A stretch of 64,000 bases of DNA. It comes from Tersicoccus sp. Bi-70 (lineage in GTDB: Bacteria > Actinomycetota > Actinomycetes > Actinomycetales > Micrococcaceae). Within the stretch, counting starts at the first letter, position 1. Each line of letters opens with the position of its first letter. The stretch is taken from positions 310,001-374,000 of the forward strand of contig NZ_MIEU01000010.1 in NCBI RefSeq assembly GCF_001968825.1, in the 5' to 3' direction. Position numbers and translations under genes: made by a program. Under the pieces are notes generated by a model. That model worked only from the letters and a program-made list of their open reading frames with translations, did no database searches and was not told where the DNA came from. Below are positions 48,566 to 56,775 of the stretch, piece after piece.

Positions 48566-48705
48566 GCGGTCACGATAGCGGCCCGGGCCTGACGACGGCC
48601 GCGACGGCGTCGCGTCGATCCGCCCCACGGCCCGCCGGCGGCGACCGTCGCGACACGATCACAAGTCTGCTGACGATCGACTCGCTATCCCGGCCTGACA
48701 TGGGC

Positions 48706-48711
48706 TAGCCT
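48706..48711 (+). promoter_or_regulatory. -10-like TAGCCT upstream of fdhA
   Basis: TAGCCT ends six bases before the ATG at 48718, the same geometry as for ispH and the phosphatase gene. No ribosome-binding site precedes fdhA, so a leaderless mRNA is likely. Confidence 0.45.
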
Positions 48712-48717
48712 CGCTGC

Positions 48718-51700
48718 ATGGCGACGCGCAAGTTCCTGGGGTGGCCGGCGGCCCGGCAGTTGGCATCCGGCGACTGGCTCGGGCGTGGCCCGGCGGTGAC
48801 GTCCCCCCGCACGGAGAGTCTTAAATCCCGCACGACCACCGCCGACCGGGTGGTGCAGAGCGTGTGCCCGTACTGCGCCGTCGGGTGCGGCCAACGCGTC
48901 TTCGTCAAGGACGAGAAGGTCGTCCAGATCGAGGGCGATCCGGATTCGCCGATCTCGCGCGGCCGGCTCTGCCCCAAGGGCTCGGCGAGCGAGCAGCTCG
49001 TCAACTCGATCGGTCGGCAGACGACGGTCCTCTACCGCGCGCCGCGGGCCACGGAGTGGCAGAACCTGGACCTGGCCACCGCGGTCGACATGATCACGGA
49101 CCGGTTCCTCGAGGCCCGCCGCAAGGGCTGGCAGGACACCGACGACCAGGGCCGGCAGGTCCGCCGCACCATGGGCATCGCGTCCCTCGGCGGCGCGACG
49201 CTGGACAACGAAGAGAACTACCTGATCAAGAAGCTCTTCACCGCGGCCGGAGCCATCCAGGTCGAGAACCAGGCCCGTATTTGACACTCTTCCACGGTTC
49301 CCAGTCTGGGAACCTCGTTCGGACGTGGCGGTGCCACGCAGAGTCTGCAGGACATGGCCAACGCCGACTGCATCGTGATCCAGGGATCCAACATGGCCGA
49401 GTGCCATCCCGTCGGGTTCCAGTGGGTCGCCGAGGCCAAGGCGCGCGGCGCGAAGGTCATCCACGTCGACCCGCGCTTCACCCGGACCTCGGCGGTCGCT
49501 GACAAGCACGTGCCGATCCGCGCGGGCTCGGACATCGTCCTGCTTGGCGCCCTGATCAACCACGTGCTCACCAACGACCTCTGGTTCAAGGAGTACGTGC
49601 TCGCGTACACCAACGCCGCGACGGTCGTGAACAGCGACTACCGCGACGCCGAGGACCTCGGCGGTCTGTTCTCCGGGATCGACCCGGAAACCGGTCACTA
49701 CGACACCACCACGTGGGCATACGCCGACGGGGACGGTGACGGCGATGGCGGCGCCGGTGACTCGCACGGGTCGAAGGCGTCCGCGCGTGCCGCCGGCGAC
49801 GAGCACGGCAGCGGCGGTCCGCCGCTCGACGCGACCGACGCGATCCGCGACGACACCCTGGAGAACCCGTTCACGGTGTTCCAGATCCTCAAGCGGCACT
49901 ACGCCCGGTACACGCCCGAGATGGTGCAGCAGCTGTGCGGCATCTCGACGGAGGACTTCGCGTACCTGGCGAAGGCCATCACCGAGAACTCGAACCGCGA
50001 CCGGACCACCTGCTTCGCCTACGCCGTCGGCTGGACCCAGCACGGGACGGGGGCGCAGTACATCCGCACGGCGGCGATCCTGCAGCTGCTGCTCGGCAAC
50101 ATCGGTCGTCCCGGTGGCGGCATCATGGCGCTGCGCGGCCACGCGAGCATCCAGGGCTCCACGGACATCCCGACGCTGTTCAACCTGCTGCCGGGTTATC
50201 TGCCCATGCCGAGCGCCGGCACGCACGACACGTTCGAGGACTACCTCTCGGCCATCTTCACCAAGAAGCAGAAGGGCTTCTGGGGGAACGCGGACGCCTA
50301 CACCATCAGCCTGCTCAAGGCGTGGTGGGGCGACGCGGCGACGGCCGAGAACAACTGGGCGTTCGACTACCTGCCGCGACTGACCGGGGCGCACGGCACC
50401 TTCCAGACGCTGACGGCCATGCTGGACGACAAGGTCGACGGGTACTTTATCCTCGGCCAGAACCCGGCGGTGGGCTCCTCCAACGGGCGCATGCAGCGGA
50501 TGGCGATGTCGCACCTGAAGTGGCTGGTCGTCCGGGACCTGAGCCTGATCGAGTCCGCCACCTGGTGGAAGGACGGCCCGGAGATCGCGACCGGCGAGCT
50601 GCGCACCGAGGACATCGAGACCGAGGTGTTCTTCCTGCCCGCTGCGAGCCACGTCGAGAAGGCCGGCTCGTTCACACAGACCCAGCGCCTGCTCCAGTGG
50701 CGGCACCGCGCCGTCAGCCCGCCCGGCGACTGCCAGAGCGAGCTCGAGTTCTTCCACGAGCTCGGTCAGCGGCTGCGGGAGCGCCTCGCGAACTCCACCG
50801 ACGAGCGGGATCGGCCCCTGTTGGACCTGACCTGGGACTACCCGAAGGACGACCAGGGCGAGGTCGATCCGGAAGCGGTGCTCGCCGAGATCAACGGCCG
50901 GCACCTGACCGGTCCGGACGCCGGCAAGCCGTTGTCCGCCTACACCGAGATGAAGGCCGACGGCTCGACCGACGGCGGATGCTGGATCTACACCGGCGTG
51001 TACGCGGACGGGGTCAACCACGCCGCCAACCGCAAGCCCGGACGCGAGCAGGGTCCCGCGGCCCTGGACTGGGGCTGGGCGTGGCCGGCGAACCGCCGCG
51101 TGCTGTACAACCGTGCCTCCGCGGATCCGGACGGCAAGCCGTGGAGCGAGCGCAAGCGGTACGTCTGGTGGGACGAGGAGCAGGGCAAGTGGACCGGCGA
51201 CGACGTCCCGGACTTCCCGCCGGACCTCGCGCCGGACAGCCGTCCGGACCCCGAGGTCGGGGGTCCCGAGGCGCTCTCCGGTGATGACCCGTTCATCATG
51301 CAAGCCGACGGGAAGGGCTGGTTGTTCGCGCCCAAGGGCATGCTCGACGGCCCGTTGCCGACCCACTATGAGCCGCAGGAGTCCCCGGTCGTCAACGCGC
51401 TGTACCCGCAGCAGCGGGATCCGTCCCGGGTGATCTTCGACCGGCCGGAGAACATGAGCGCCCCCAGCGGGGACGAGCCGGGCGCCGCCGTGTACCCGTT
51501 CGTCTTCACCACCTACCGGCTGACCGAGCACCACACGGCCGGAGGCATGAGCCGCTGGCTGCCGTACCTGTCGGAACTGCAGCCCGAGATGTTCTGCGAG
51601 GTCTCCCCGGAGCTCGCCGAGGAGCGCGGCCTGGAGAACGGCGGCTGGGCGACGATCGTCTCCCCGCGCGCCGCGATCGAGGCCAAGGTGCTCGTCACCG

Positions 51701-52044
51701 ACCGGATGAAGCCGCTGCGGATCAGCGACCACACCGTGCACCAGATCGGCCTGCCGTATCACTGGGGGACCGGTGGCACCGGTGCCGTGGTGGAGGGCGA
51801 CGGGGCCAACGACCTGCTCGGCATCACCCTGGACGCGAACACGCAGATCCAGGACTCGAAGGTCTCGACCTGCGACATCCGGCCGGGACGACGGCCTCGC
51901 GGGCCGGAACTGCTGGCGCTGGTGGACGAGTACCGCGTCCGGGCCGGGGTCACCTCGGCGACCGGCAGCGAGCGGCTCTCGCCGCCCGCCGCTCGGTTGG
52001 CCCGGGCGCTCGACACCGGCGACGACGCGACGAAGGAGCACTGA
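48718..52044 (+). CDS. fdhA: formate dehydrogenase alpha subunit, selenocysteine-containing (in-frame UGA at codon 189)
   Basis: A 1108-residue molybdopterin/selenocysteine formate dehydrogenase oxidising formate to CO2. The frame is interrupted once by TGA at 49282-49284 and continues in the same frame to 52044. The UGA sits in NQARI-U-HSSTVPSLGTSFGRG, exactly where FdhA/FdnG proteins have the catalytic Sec followed by His. An N-terminal [4Fe-4S] site is formed by C50, C53, C57 and C85. A bis-MGD-binding domain (GSNMAECHPVGFQW, IHVDPRFTRTSAVADKHVPIRAGSD) and a C-terminal dinucleotide-binding domain follow. A Gly/Asp/Ser-rich insertion lies near codons 335-375. The N-terminus has no twin-arginine motif or hydrophobic stretch, so the protein should stay on the cytoplasmic side. 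The downstream fdhB start overlaps the stop by one base. Read conventionally, the gene would be mistaken for two fragments. Confidence 0.95.
49282..49314 (+). promoter_or_regulatory. Sec UGA codon and SECIS-like hairpin
   Basis: After UGA (49282-49284) come 11 bases, then GGTTCCC (49296-49302), loop AGTCT (49303-49307) and GGGAACC (49308-49314), a perfect 7-bp stem. Spacing and the loop (AGTCT against AGGUCU in E. coli fdhF) match bacterial SECIS elements read by SelB. The bulged U of the E. coli stem is not evident. Confidence 0.9.
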
Positions 52045-53096
52045 TGGGTCAGCTGGCCGGACCGACGAATCCCGCCGTCGATGCTCACTGGGACCACGTG
52101 CACGACCGCCGAGGTTTCTTCACGGACACCTCGATCTGCATCGGCTGCAAGGCCTGCGAGGTCGCGTGCAAGGAGTGGAACCACAATCCGCAGGACGGCA
52201 AGCTCGAGCTGACCGGCCAGTCCTACGACAACACGGGCGGGCTCGGCGCGAGCACGTGGCGCCACGTGGCGTTCGTCGAACAGGGCACCGAGCAGATCGA
52301 GAAGGCCCGGGAGTCGGGGCGCGCCCTGGTGTCCCTCGGCATGCCGCGGCTGGGACCGCCGGCGTCGACCCCCTCGACGCCGTCGATGGCGACCACGAGC
52401 GAGACCGCCCCGCCGAACACCGATCAGTTCCGCTGGCTGATGTCCTCGGACGTCTGCAAGCACTGCACGCACGCCGGCTGCCTGGACGTGTGCCCCACCG
52501 GCGCACTGTTCCGCACCGAGTACGGCACCGTGGTGGTCCAGGACGACGTCTGCAACGGCTGCGGCACGTGCGTGGCCGGATGCCCGTTCGGCGTGATCGA
52601 ACGGCGTGAGGACGGCACCGTCCTCGTGGCCGGGGACCGCAGCGGGCCCCCGGAGGAGCTGAAGAAGCGGGTCGGGAAGAAGGCGACGCGGGTCGCCACG
52701 CCGGGGGAGAAGCCCAAGGGCGGCGTCGCCCAGAAGTGCACCCTGTGCTACGACCGGATGGTCGACGACCAGACACCGGCCTGCGCGCAGGCGTGCCCGA
52801 CGACATCGATCAAGTACGGCGATCACGACGACATGGTCGAGACGGCGCGGGCCCGGGTGGCCCAGCTGCACGCCGAGGGTCGCACCGAGGCGCGCCTCTA
52901 CGGCGCCAACGAACTCGACGGGGTCGGCGGTACCGGGTCCGTCTTCCTCCTGCTCGACGAGCCCGAGGTCTACGGCCTGCCGCCGGACCCGCGGGTGCCC
53001 ACCGCCGATCTGCCGCAGATGTACAAGCGGGCCGGTGTGGCCGTGGTCGGCATGCTCGCCGCCACCGCCGTGGCGTTCCTGGGAGGCCGCCGATGA
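52044..53096 (+). CDS. fdhB: formate dehydrogenase iron-sulfur (beta) subunit
   Basis: A 350-residue ferredoxin-type electron-transfer subunit. Four cysteine clusters are seen: CIGCKACEVAC near 33-43, CKHCTHAGCLDVC near 138-150, CNGCGTCVAGC near 171-181, and CTLCYDRM with CAQAC near 233-252, giving four [4Fe-4S] sites as in FdnH/HybA-like proteins. A single C-terminal helix (VAVVGMLAATAVAFLGG) may anchor it to the membrane. It takes electrons from FdhA and passes them to the NrfD-type subunit; its stop overlaps that gene's start (ATGA). Confidence 0.93.
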   Translation: MGQLAGPTNPAVDAHWDHVHDRRGFFTDTSICIGCKACEVACKEWNHNPQDGKLELTGQSYDNTGGLGASTWRHVAFVEQGTEQIEKARESGRALVSLGMPRLGPPASTPSTPSMATTSETAPPNTDQFRWLMSSDVCKHCTHAGCLDVCPTGALFRTEYGTVVVQDDVCNGCGTCVAGCPFGVIERREDGTVLVAGDRSGPPEELKKRVGKKATRVATPGEKPKGGVAQKCTLCYDRMVDDQTPACAQACPTTSIKYGDHDDMVETARARVAQLHAEGRTEARLYGANELDGVGGTGSVFLLLDEPEVYGLPPDPRVPTADLPQMYKRAGVAVVGMLAATAVAFLGGRR

Positions 53097-54208
53097 GCAC
53101 GTCCGTCTATGACAGCTACCGGCCGCCTGAGCCCGCCCGCGGTCGTCGCCGGCGTGGCGGGGATCGTCCGGCGGACCGGCAGCCGCGTGACGGTGCCGGA
53201 CGGCGCGGCGGGTCCGAGGGCAACCGCGAGATGTCGATGGTGCCGGAGGCCGAGTTCACCTCGTACTACGGCCGGCCGGTGGTCAAGCCCGCGCCCTGGG
53301 GCGACGACGTCGCCGCCTACCTGTTCCTCGGCGGGGTCGCCGGCGGCTCAGGGCTGCTGGCCCTCGGTGGCCAGCTGACCGGCCGGGACGCCCTGCGCCG
53401 CAACGCCCGTCTGGGGGCGCTCGGCGCCGTCGTGGTCGGCGGCGTCGCGCTCGTGCGCGATCTCGGGCGCCCCGAACGCTTCCTCAACATGCTGCGCACC
53501 TTCAAGGTGACCTCGCCGATGAGCGTCGGCTCGTGGATCCTCAGCGCCTTCGGGGCGGGCATCGGCGTCGCCGCCGCCTCGGAGGTGGACCGGATGACCG
53601 GGTCCCGCCTGCCGCTCGGCCCGCTGCGGCGCGTGCTGCGTGCCGTCGAGGCTCCGGCCGGCGTCGAGGCCGCCGTGTTCGCCGGCCCGCTCGCGGCCTA
53701 CACCGCCGTCCTGCTGGCCGACACCGCGACTCCGACGTGGAACGACGCGCGGCACGAGCTGCCCTTCGTCTTCGTCAGTTCGGCGGCCCTCGCCTCGGGT
53801 GGGCTCGCGATGATCACCACGCCGGTCGCCGAGGCCGGCCCGGCCCGGATCTTCGCGCTGCTCGGCATCGCCGGAGACATCGCCTCGGTGCGGACCATGA
53901 AGGCGCGGATGGACCCGGTCGCGGCCGAACCGCTGCAGCAGGGTGCACCCGGCGTCATGCTCGACTGGAGCGAACGCCTGGTCCTCGCCGGAGTGGCGGG
54001 CACGCTGCTGGCCGGTCGCAGCCGCACGGTGGCCGTGCTGACGGGCACCGCTCTGCTGACCGCCTCGGCGCTGACCCGGTTCGCGACCCTGCACGCCGGC
54101 ATCGCGTCGGCCAAGGACCCGCGCTACACGATCGAGCCGCAGAAGCGGCGGCTCGCGGCCCGCCGTGCGGCCGGCATCACCGACGACGCGATCACGACCG
54201 TCGGCTGA
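53093..54208 (+). CDS. nrfD: NrfD/PsrC-type membrane subunit of formate dehydrogenase
   Basis: A 371-residue integral membrane protein. An approximately 75-residue Arg/Gly-rich hydrophilic N-terminus (YYGRPVVKPAPWGDDVAAYLFLGG at its end is the NrfD entry motif) precedes eight or so helices. LVRDLGRPERFLNMLRTFKVTSPMSVGSWIL is characteristic of NrfD/PsrC. Such subunits exchange electrons with quinone without heme, replacing the cytochrome b subunit (FdnI) of FdnGHI. Third gene of the operon, overlapping fdhB by four bases. Confidence 0.9.
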   Translation: MSTSVYDSYRPPEPARGRRRRGGDRPADRQPRDGAGRRGGSEGNREMSMVPEAEFTSYYGRPVVKPAPWGDDVAAYLFLGGVAGGSGLLALGGQLTGRDALRRNARLGALGAVVVGGVALVRDLGRPERFLNMLRTFKVTSPMSVGSWILSAFGAGIGVAAASEVDRMTGSRLPLGPLRRVLRAVEAPAGVEAAVFAGPLAAYTAVLLADTATPTWNDARHELPFVFVSSAALASGGLAMITTPVAEAGPARIFALLGIAGDIASVRTMKARMDPVAAEPLQQGAPGVMLDWSERLVLAGVAGTLLAGRSRTVAVLTGTALLTASALTRFATLHAGIASAKDPRYTIEPQKRRLAARRAAGITDDAITTVG

Positions 54209-54233: not shown

Positions 54234-55250
54234 TCAGCGCACCTCGATGCCCGCGCCGGGGACGGTGTGTCCGATGACGGGATGCCCGGGCAGCTCTCCG
54301 ACGACCAGCAGGCCGCCGGAGGTCTGGGCGTCGGCGAGCAGGAGCAGCTCGTCCTCGTCGATGCCGGCGGCGCTCCGCACGTGCGGACGCACCCAGTCGA
54401 GGTTGCGCTGGGTGCCCCCGGAGACGAACCCGTCCCGCAGCGCCTCCCGCGCGCCCTCGACCACCGGAACGGCCGCGGCGTCGATCACCGCGCCGACCCC
54501 GGAGGCCCGCATCATCTTGTGCAGATGACCGAGCAGCCCGAAGCCGGTGACGTCGGTCGCCGCGCGGACGCCGGCTGCCAGAGCCGCCTCCGAGGCGTCG
54601 CGATTGAGCGCGATCATGGTGGCGAGCGCGGCGTCGAACACCTCGCCGGTGCGCTTGTGGCGATTGTTCAGCAGCCCGACGCCGATCGGTTTGGTCAGCG
54701 TCAGCGGCAGGCCCGCCACGGCGGCGTCGTTGCGCAACAGGCGGTCCGGGTCGGCCACCCCCGTCACGGCCATGCCGTACTTCGGTTCCGGGTCGTCGAT
54801 CGAGTGCCCCCCGATCACGGGGCACCCCGCCTCGGCGGCGACCGCGAGACCGCCCTGGAGCACCTCGGTCATCAGGGAGAGGGGGAGCACGTCCCGCGGC
54901 CACCCGACCAGGTTGATCGCGACCACCGGTCGGCCGCCCATCGCGTAGACGTCCGAGAGGGCGTTCGCCGCGGCGATCCGGCCCCAGTCGTAGGCGTCGT
55001 CCACCACCGGGGTGAAGAAGTCGGCCGTCGAGAGCACGGCCAGGCCCTCCCGGACCAGCACCGCCGCGGCGTCGTCGCCGTCGTCCAGGCCCACGAGGAC
55101 GTTCTCGCCGCTCTGCCCGGTCAACCCGCGGACGGCCTCCTCGAGCTCGCCCGGCGGGATCTTGCACGCGCAGCCGCCACCGTGGGCGTAGCCGGTCAGA
55201 CGGACGGCCGGCTGCTCCCGGACGGAGGAGGAGGCGGGGGAGGAGCTCAT
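54234..55250 (-). CDS. selD: selenide, water dikinase
   Basis: A 338-residue SelD that makes selenophosphate from selenide and ATP. The catalytic segment AHGGGCACK aligns with the family HGAGCGCK, so C27 is the catalytic cysteine and K30 the essential lysine; it is a Cys, not Sec, version. ATP/Mg motifs include GLDDGDDAAAVL, STADFFTPVVDDAYDWGRIAAANALSDVYAMGG and GGHSIDDPEPKYG. It is convergent with the fdh operon and divergent from selC. Confidence 0.95.
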   Translation of the reverse strand: MSSSPASSSVREQPAVRLTGYAHGGGCACKIPPGELEEAVRGLTGQSGENVLVGLDDGDDAAAVLVREGLAVLSTADFFTPVVDDAYDWGRIAAANALSDVYAMGGRPVVAINLVGWPRDVLPLSLMTEVLQGGLAVAAEAGCPVIGGHSIDDPEPKYGMAVTGVADPDRLLRNDAAVAGLPLTLTKPIGVGLLNNRHKRTGEVFDAALATMIALNRDASEAALAAGVRAATDVTGFGLLGHLHKMMRASGVGAVIDAAAVPVVEGAREALRDGFVSGGTQRNLDWVRPHVRSAAGIDEDELLLLADAQTSGGLLVVGELPGHPVIGHTVPGAGIEVR

Positions 55251-55275
55251 GTCCCGAGCGTAGTCCCGGATTGAC

Positions 55276-55288: not shown

Positions 55289-55383
55289 GGAGGCGTCCGG
55301 GTCCTGGTGGGCCCCCCGGTCTTCAAAACCGGTGAGACCGAGCATCTCGGTCTGGCGGGTTCGATTCCCGTCCGCCTCCGCCA
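55289..55383 (+). tRNA. selC: tRNA-Sec (anticodon UCA)
   Basis: A 95-base tRNA including encoded CCA. Acceptor GGAGGCG pairs with CGCCTCC (an eighth U-C position is mismatched); discriminator G80. The D stem is 6 bp, GGGTCC/GGGCCC, with the 4-base loop TGGT, as in bacterial tRNA-Sec. Anticodon stem CCGGT/ACCGG with loop CTTCAAA puts UCA at 55323-55325. The long variable arm AGACCGAG/CTCGGTCT has 8 bp. T arm GCGGG-TTCGATT-CCCGT. SelA and SelB are encoded directly downstream. Confidence 0.97.
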
Positions 55384-55425: not shown

Positions 55426-56775
55426 GTGGAGCAGACCGATCCCCGCCGCCTGATCCCGCGCACCGACCGGCTGCTGGCCCTGCCCGCGGTCGACGCGGCG
55501 CGTGACCGGCTGAGCGAGACGGTGCTGCTCGGCCTCGTCCGCGAGGTGCAGGATCGTGCCCGGCGCGGCGAGCTCGCCCCCGACCAGGTGGCAGAGACGG
55601 TCGAGGCCGCGGTCCGGTCTCGCACGGCGGCCCGCCTGCAGCCCGTGCTCAACGCCACCGGCGTCGTCGTGCACACCAACCTGGGCCGAGCCCCGCTCGG
55701 TCCTGCTGCAGTCGACGCGGTGCTGGCCGCCACCGGCTACGTCGACGTCGAGCTCGATCTGACCACCGGGGTCCGCTCCCGCCGCGGCGCCGGCGTCCGT
55801 GCGGCCCTGCTCGCCGCGTGCCCGGGCGCCGAGGACGCCCTCGTCGTCAACAACGGCGCCGCGGCCCTCGTTCTGGCGACCACCGCGCTCGCCGCCGGGC
55901 GGGAGGTGGTGATCAGCCGCGGGGAGCTGGTCGAGATCGGCGCCGGGTTCCGGCTGCCCGACCTGATCGCCTCCACCGGCGCCCGGCTGCGCGAGGTCGG
56001 CACCACCAACCGCACCCACCTGCGCGATTACGCCGACGCCGTCGGCCCCGACACCGGCTGCATCCTCAAGGTGCACCCGAGCAACTTCCGCGTCGAGGGA
56101 TTCACGGCCGGCACACCGCTGGACGAACTGGCGGCTCTCGCCGCCGAGCGCGGGGTGCCGCTGGTCGCCGACATCGGCAGTGGACTGCTGCGCCCGGACC
56201 CGGCGCTGCCCGACGAACCGGACGCCGCCACCACCCTGGCCGCGGGTGCGGACCTCGTGACCGCCAGCGGGGACAAGCTGCTCGGTGGCCCCCAGGCCGG
56301 GCTGCTGCTGGGCACGGCCGACCTGATCACCCGGCTGTCCCGGCACCCGTTGGCCCGTGCCGTCCGCGCCGACAAGCTGACGCTCGCCGCGCTCGAGGCC
56401 ACCGTCGCCGGAGGCGAGGCCCCGGTCACCCGGTACCGTCATGCCGATCCCGCCCGCCTGCGCGCCCGCACCGAGCAGATCGCCGCCGCGCTCGGCGCCC
56501 TGGTCGTCCCGCACGACGGCCGGGTGGGCGGCGGGGGCGCCCCGGGCGTGCCCCTGCCCGGCTGGGCGGTGCGCCTGGACGAGGCGGCCGCCGTGGCCCT
56601 GCGCACCGGCCGCCCCGCCGTGCTGCCCCGCGTGCACGACGGCGCGTGCCTGCTCGACCTGCGGTGCATCCCGGAGGCGGACGACGGGCGGCTGCTCGAC
56701 GCGGTGCGCGCGGCGCTCGCGACGCTGCCCGGTGCGACCCTGCCCGATGCGGCCCTGCCCGGTGCGGACCGATGA
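55426..56775 (+). CDS. selA: L-seryl-tRNA(Sec) selenium transferase
   Basis: A 449-residue PLP enzyme that converts Ser-tRNA(Sec) to Sec-tRNA(Sec) using selenophosphate. N-terminal RRLIPRTDRLLALPAVDAAR, NATGVVVHTNLGRAPL near 75, and the PLP lysine K284 in TASGDKLLGGPQAG, with KVHPSNFRVEGFT upstream. The GTG at 55426 has CAGGAG six bases before it. It starts 42 bases after selC and is separated from selB by ten bases. Confidence 0.96.
   Translation: MEQTDPRRLIPRTDRLLALPAVDAARDRLSETVLLGLVREVQDRARRGELAPDQVAETVEAAVRSRTAARLQPVLNATGVVVHTNLGRAPLGPAAVDAVLAATGYVDVELDLTTGVRSRRGAGVRAALLAACPGAEDALVVNNGAAALVLATTALAAGREVVISRGELVEIGAGFRLPDLIASTGARLREVGTTNRTHLRDYADAVGPDTGCILKVHPSNFRVEGFTAGTPLDELAALAAERGVPLVADIGSGLLRPDPALPDEPDAATTLAAGADLVTASGDKLLGGPQAGLLLGTADLITRLSRHPLARAVRADKLTLAALEATVAGGEAPVTRYRHADPARLRARTEQIAAALGALVVPHDGRVGGGGAPGVPLPGWAVRLDEAAAVALRTGRPAVLPRVHDGACLLDLRCIPEADDGRLLDAVRAALATLPGATLPDAALPGADR

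Follow-up and report, generated by a model that had tools for sequence, protein, structure and literature searches.

The closest described systems to the locus analysed here are the formate dehydrogenase (FDH) clusters of Corynebacterium aurimucosum and of A. chiangmaiensis, a species that we take to belong to the genus Actinomycetospora. Together with SelD, FdhA is the most widespread bacterial selenoprotein, and its linkage to the sel genes has been described (PMC1794560, PMC5029168); transfer of the selenocysteine (Sec) trait into two Arthrobacter is also on record (PMC5029168). In C. aurimucosum, a UGA-containing gene for the FDH alpha subunit, fdnG, is clustered with selABD and selC; this cluster belongs to another genus than that of our sequence and is described there at the gene level (PMC2830990). 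The FDH1 cluster of A. chiangmaiensis DSM 45062 holds a Sec-type FdhA1 (1078 aa), FdhB and FdhC, followed by selA and selB (PMC7176365). FdhA1, FdhB1, SelA and SelB of this strain were detected in the proteome at low abundance, and its removal of formate is selenium-dependent and needs selenite (PMC7176365).

We analysed a stretch of 64,000 nucleotides from Tersicoccus sp. Bi-70 (hereafter the window) in which an FDH gene with an in-frame TGA is likewise joined by sel genes. Unlike the window, the FDH1 cluster of A. chiangmaiensis is listed without selD and with a permease gene, and that strain has three Sec-FDHs (PMC7176365), as opposed to the single fdhA match in the 3.48 Mb genome of the window. 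The product of fdhA, we conclude, is almost certainly a molybdopterin formate dehydrogenase with Sec, inserted at UGA codon 189, as its catalytic residue. This reading is supported by the match to NCBIfam model NF041513, the non-standard residue found at this position in two solved structures, a covarying SECIS hairpin, the clustered sel genes and the co-occurrence with SelB. Given the clusters published for C. aurimucosum and Actinomycetospora chiangmaiensis and the surveys cited above, a Sec-FDH next to sel genes is a well-known arrangement, and the finding is correct but ordinary. A literature search for Kocuria with selenocysteine and formate dehydrogenase returned nothing.

The gene and its internal stop codon are located as follows.

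48718..52044, plus strand: fdhA, encoding the alpha subunit of formate dehydrogenase in 1108 codons, of which one is an in-frame TGA; matches NF041513 (1944 bits), PF00384, PF04879 and PF01568
49282..49284, plus strand: TGA codon 189 of fdhA, predicted selenocysteine codon; TGA in 118 of 129 loci and opposite X of 1KQF and 1H0H

The frame runs from the ATG at 48718 to a terminal TGA at 52042-52044, and its sole other in-frame stop is the TGA at 49282-49284. As the initial annotation had seen, this TGA at 49282 lies within intact family sequence in the same frame, with NQARI on its 5' side and HSSTVPSLGTSFGRG on its 3' side. The expected splitting by standard gene calling is apparent in the list of open reading frames (ORFs), where the gene appears as a 188-aa fragment (48718-49284) plus an ORF of 896 aa with a late start (49354-52044), and the anticipated product of about 120 kDa agrees with a computed FdhA mass of 121 kDa (Cys put at 189). 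The warning that the locus is easily misannotated stands in part: plain ORF calling does split fdhA, but NCBIfam has a dedicated model, NF041513, given which NCBI annotation may already handle the Sec codon. The remaining two forward frames of 48718-52044 contain 19 and 7 stops. GC content at codon positions 1/2/3 is 0.65/0.51/0.93 upstream of the TGA and 0.66/0.49/0.94 downstream, so that both parts of fdhA look coding in one frame.

Downstream of fdhA, the cluster comprises six further genes.

52044..53096, plus strand: fdhB, 4Fe-4S beta subunit; Fer4 families; TIGR01582 158.7 bits (cut-off 334.7)
53231..54208, plus strand: nrfD-type membrane subunit; PF03916 67.9 bits on 53180-54205; start codon uncertain, estimated
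54234..55250, minus strand: selD, selenophosphate synthase; TIGR00476 385 bits; open frame
55289..55383, plus strand: selC, tRNA-Sec with anticodon TCA; ARAGORN, and RF01852 79.7 bits on 55289-55379
55426..56775, plus strand: selA, L-seryl-tRNA(Sec) selenium transferase; TIGR00474 427 bits; PF03841
56786..58624, plus strand: selB, Sec-specific elongation factor with SelB winged-helix domain; TIGR00475 269 bits (cut-off 242); PF09107

The ATG of fdhB overlaps the fdhA stop (TGATG), and selD, selC, selA and selB all lie within 7 kb after fdhA. The N-terminal loop of SelD, GGGCACK, carries a Cys at what is presumably the Sec/Cys position. Neither the downstream selD-selC-selA-selB genes nor the SECIS hairpin figured in the initial annotation. 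Gene order was compared across 83 loci extending more than 9.3 kb beyond codon 189 (duplicates kept): 40 share the order of the window (fdhB, nrfD, selD on the minus strand, selA, selB), selB, selA and selD precede fdhB and nrfD in 11, and the remaining 32 are partial or rearranged. Among these 32, sel genes were not found in the examined stretch of five TGA loci and both TAG loci, and the seven TGC loci have fdhB and nrfD only.

In the proposed mechanism, SelA would use selenophosphate made by SelD to convert seryl-tRNA-Sec (selC) to Sec-tRNA-Sec, which SelB would bring to the ribosome. The C-terminal winged helices of SelB would bind a hairpin located 11 nt after the UGA, so that codon 189 would yield Sec and not a stop. 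Together with the FeS protein FdhB and the membrane subunit of NrfD type, the ~121-kDa alpha subunit would then form a complex expected to oxidise formate to CO2 and to pass the electrons to quinone. That the protein contains Sec, that SelB binds the hairpin, and that the enzyme is active and reduces quinone we infer from its homologs and from what is generally known. Alternatively, fdhA could have two products, the full-length selenoprotein when selenium is present and, when it is not, a 188-residue (21 kDa) fragment having a role of its own. Sec insertion competes with termination in general, with 30-40% recoding in vivo (PMC4513850), but the fragment would amount to the 4Fe-4S domain and the mere beginning of the catalytic domain, and no pointer to a function was found for it; we regard such a role as very unlikely.

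FdhA scores 1944.4 bits against NF041513 (formate_DH_Act; cut-off 1400) over residues 6-1074 of 1109, and 924.5 against TIGR01553 (Fdh-N alpha subunit), above the cut-off of 814.2. In the structure alignment with 1KQF and 1H0H, the two best solved relatives, codon 189 falls opposite X, a non-standard residue, within the motif QAR(I/V)-X-H. We take 1KQF to be E. coli Fdh-N (FdnG) and the X to be Sec in both structures. Further entries in the list of solved structures bear 'selenocysteine-containing' in their names. The likeness to E. coli Fdh-N extends over two long aligned stretches of the alpha subunit, in addition to the non-standard residue at the codon-189 position. An Asp/Gly/Ala-rich insert in FdhA (49720-49840, approximately residues 337-374) separates the two stretches aligned to 1KQF/1H0H.

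Enzymes of the Fdh-N type have a periplasmic alpha subunit with a Tat signal peptide and a cytochrome b gamma subunit. In the window, the third gene encodes a membrane subunit of the NrfD type (PF03916) in place of a cytochrome b gamma subunit, and FdhB remains below the cut-off of the Fdh-N beta model (158.7 against 334.7 for TIGR01582). By eye, with the N-termini of 45 of 123 rows read, the window FdhA shows no twin arginine with a run of hydrophobic residues behind it; the motif RRFL does occur at the N-terminus in two relatives (L002 and L003). To the eye, then, the window protein has no clear Tat signal, in which it may differ from E. coli Fdh-N; absence of the signal would place the catalytic subunit inside the cell.

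The identity of codon 189 was followed in 130 fdhA loci (30 loci from the family genomes, 20 chosen stretches and the best 80 of at least 587 confirmed candidates), one of which (L087) does not cover the codon. The 129 counted loci have TGA in 118 cases, TGC in nine and TAG in two; when identical 120-nt stretches are counted once, the numbers are 112, 9 and 2. Sense codons other than Cys or Sec in relatives, which the initial annotation had held to count against its reading, are absent from all 129 loci. The nine TGC genes (L031-L039) represent a second, Cys-type FdhA paralog, 64-65% identical to the window protein and present in g7 and g18, two genera that share a family with the window genome; three of these nine relatives are without SelB over the cut-off.

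The distribution of fdhA and SelB was examined in 197 genomes of the family, presumably the Micrococcaceae. An FdhA match at E 1e-100 is present in 59 and SelB over the curated cut-off in 53. Three of the 59 (G103, G149 and G161) have only the Cys paralog at this threshold, none of them with SelB over the cut-off. Sec-type fdhA is found in the other 56, including all 53 SelB genomes, and there is no SelB genome without it. Of these 56, 41 had codon 189 read directly, 14 others show a TGA within the match, and in the last (G124) the match covers only the part after residue 370. Three genomes carry Sec-type fdhA but no SelB over the cut-off (G021, G147 and G166): fdhA lies 84 nt from the contig end in G021 and 1446 nt from it in G147, while G166 is 71% complete, and SelB is probably missing from all three through assembly. 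Two apparent exceptions were ruled out. The TGAs seen in SelB-less genomes (one in G149, two in G161) do not mark UGA-type fdhA, these genes being Cys paralogs whose aligned stretch is stop-free, and the suspected second internal stop in G120 and G021 disappears, the G120 paralog having none in its aligned part and G021 the one at codon 189 only.

The hairpin that SelB would bind lies directly downstream of the TGA.

49296..49314, plus strand: apical hairpin of the SECIS, 11 nt downstream of the TGA; its 8-bp stem carries a GUC loop (49304-49306)

The window sequence matches the Rfam model SECIS_3 at 49279-49335 with 32.5 bits (E 7e-4), under the gathering score of 63, and its fold, taken alone, is unremarkable (z -1.5, equalled by 18 of 200 shuffles). 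The comparative evidence for the hairpin is stronger. Among 101 distinct relatives, 97.2% of the 808 pair cells are standard pairs and both sides are changed in 25 cells, values reached by 0 of 500 shuffles in either case. On weaker measures, there are three pairs with double changes (27/500 shuffles as high) and nine further pair types (35/500). The clearest compensatory changes are C-G to U-A in four sequences and U-A to C-G in 15, or to G-U in two; 16 of the 101 sequences lack the outermost pair. Versions of the hairpin slid along the alignment are 26-69% paired, but the -1 slide has 30 double-change cells against 25 in the true register, and the double-change count alone therefore does not separate registers. 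Within the hairpin, third codon positions show little variation (0 to 0.9 bits), as they do in the three codons leading to it from the TGA (0 to 0.5 bits), compared with mostly 0.9 to 1.9 bits in the next nine codons 3'.

The hairpin also follows the identity of codon 189. All 114 distinct TGA or TAG rows have 7-8 of the 8 pairs and the GU loop, as opposed to 4-7 pairs in the nine TGC paralogs. That it was lost in all Cys paralogs was ruled out: it is degenerate, with those 4-7 pairs left and a GU loop in one of the nine. A clean SECIS alignment of 101 sequences is now at hand for this actinobacterial FDH class. Searched with a model built from it, the window's own genome returned fdhA at E 4e-15; the remaining four matches, at E 2 or worse and one of them the fdhA hairpin on the opposite strand, disclose no other selenoprotein within the scope of this search, which scored 150 of 6939 first-look candidates and is blind to SECIS of other kinds.

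These comparisons bear on the possibility that the TGA is a disabling mutation or a sequencing error and fdhA a pseudogene, the picture that the two fragments of a plain ORF caller would give. The identical TGA recurs at the identical codon in 118 of the 129 loci, spanning many actinobacterial genera, coding bias continues past it, the SECIS covaries and sel genes adjoin fdhA, which makes a pseudogene highly improbable. What might have passed for a pseudogene is settled as a probable working selenoprotein gene with a full Sec gene set alongside.

The open frame across the TGA would also be explained if a tRNA other than tRNA-Sec, near-cognate or reassigned (one for Trp, say), decoded the UGA. 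However, a tRNA-Sec with TCA anticodon is located 3.2 kb downstream of fdhA, SelB is encoded, Cys is the only sense codon at position 189 among the 129 loci, and the terminal stop of fdhA is itself TGA; non-Sec readthrough is accordingly given very little credence. Further evidence that tRNA-Sec decodes codon 189 comes from the two TAG loci, which are from Geodermatophilus (L123:10538 and L127:10538). The recoding of UAG as Sec in FDH of Geodermatophilaceae is already published, the original work being Mukai 2016 according to PMC5330540. Their genes are of the same family as the window fdhA, with a hairpin that keeps all 8 pairs and the GU loop, and differ from it in pairing TAG with CUA where the window pairs TGA with UCA. 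The best tRNA-Sec matches of both Geodermatophilus genomes carry CTA in the anticodon loop, whereas the loop is TCA in the six TGA genomes compared, the window's included. This agreement between codon and anticodon (TAG-CTA, TGA-TCA) provides an independent check that codon 189 is decoded by tRNA-Sec. Within the two TAG loci and four others (L094, L099, L106 and L121), no tRNA-Sec reaches the Rfam gathering threshold; the six whole genomes have one tRNA-Sec over the cut-off each, elsewhere by coordinates. A second, weaker match barely clears the cut-off in each Geodermatophilus genome (48.2 and 47.5 bits); it has TGA in the loop, and we read it as a serine tRNA.

The long antisense ORF at 48685-52041 on the minus strand (1118 codons, no internal stop) can practically be dismissed as the true gene. 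Only 18 of 123 distinct rows, among them that of the window, keep the codon-aligned antisense frame free of stops, while the sense frame matches FDH in all 123; the ORF is consistent with a shadow cast by the high GC content of third codon positions (0.94). Spanning fdhA as it does, this ORF could be called in place of the gene.

Beyond the decoding of the UGA, the Sec-type genes stand out by their starts.

48706..48711, plus strand: leaderless-type start of fdhA; -10-like TANNNT hexamer (TAGCCT) 6 nt upstream of the ATG
55257..55262, minus strand: leaderless-type start of selD; TANNNT hexamer (TACGCT) 6 nt upstream of the ATG

Leaderless genes, on average 19% of the genes in Actinobacteria, are marked by a hexamer of this kind some 12 nt ahead of the start (PMC3160421). 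Our counts take in distinct loci with a match extending into the first 40 residues, and several start candidates were allowed per gene. TANNNT stands 6-7 nt ahead of a candidate start codon in 87 of 111 TGA-type fdhA, where shuffled upstream sequence would give 3.8, and in 46 of 57 selD, where it would give 0.9; these rows are related to one another, and the shuffle is the sole chance control. At the same spacing it precedes 0/116 fdhB, 0/113 nrfD, 1/56 selA and 0/25 selB, as well as 0/9 Cys-type and 0/2 TAG-type fdhA. With spacers widened to 4-9 nt, the hexamer is present in 89 of the 113 TGA and TAG rows of fdhA, against a shuffled rate of 9%.

A crude Shine-Dalgarno screen fires in all nine Cys-type fdhA, but also in 36 of 111 TGA-type fdhA when any candidate start counts; restricted to the start chosen in each of the 89 leaderless-like fdhA, it fires in 2. 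The same screen fires in just 32 of 113 nrfD and 8 of 25 selB. With some reserve, we favour the reading that in Actinobacteria the Sec-type fdhA and the divergent selD are leaderless and the Cys paralog sits behind a Shine-Dalgarno sequence, Sec decoding being tied to initiation free of a 5'-UTR. In M. tuberculosis, respiration and energy genes are almost without leaderless mRNAs (PMC3898074), and an FDH would thus be an unusual member of the leaderless set. The literature available on leaderless initiation, selenocysteine and formate dehydrogenase holds nothing evidently on a leaderless Sec-type fdhA, and the main text of an M. smegmatis transcriptome paper (PMC5741613) makes no mention of selenocysteine, formate or selD; the leaderless-type starts of Sec-type fdhA and selD may be new. 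If they are as proposed, expression of the selenoenzyme and of its selenium donor may be coupled to conditions favouring leaderless translation. The two genes, fdhA and the divergent selD, are the two heads of transcription units in the cluster.
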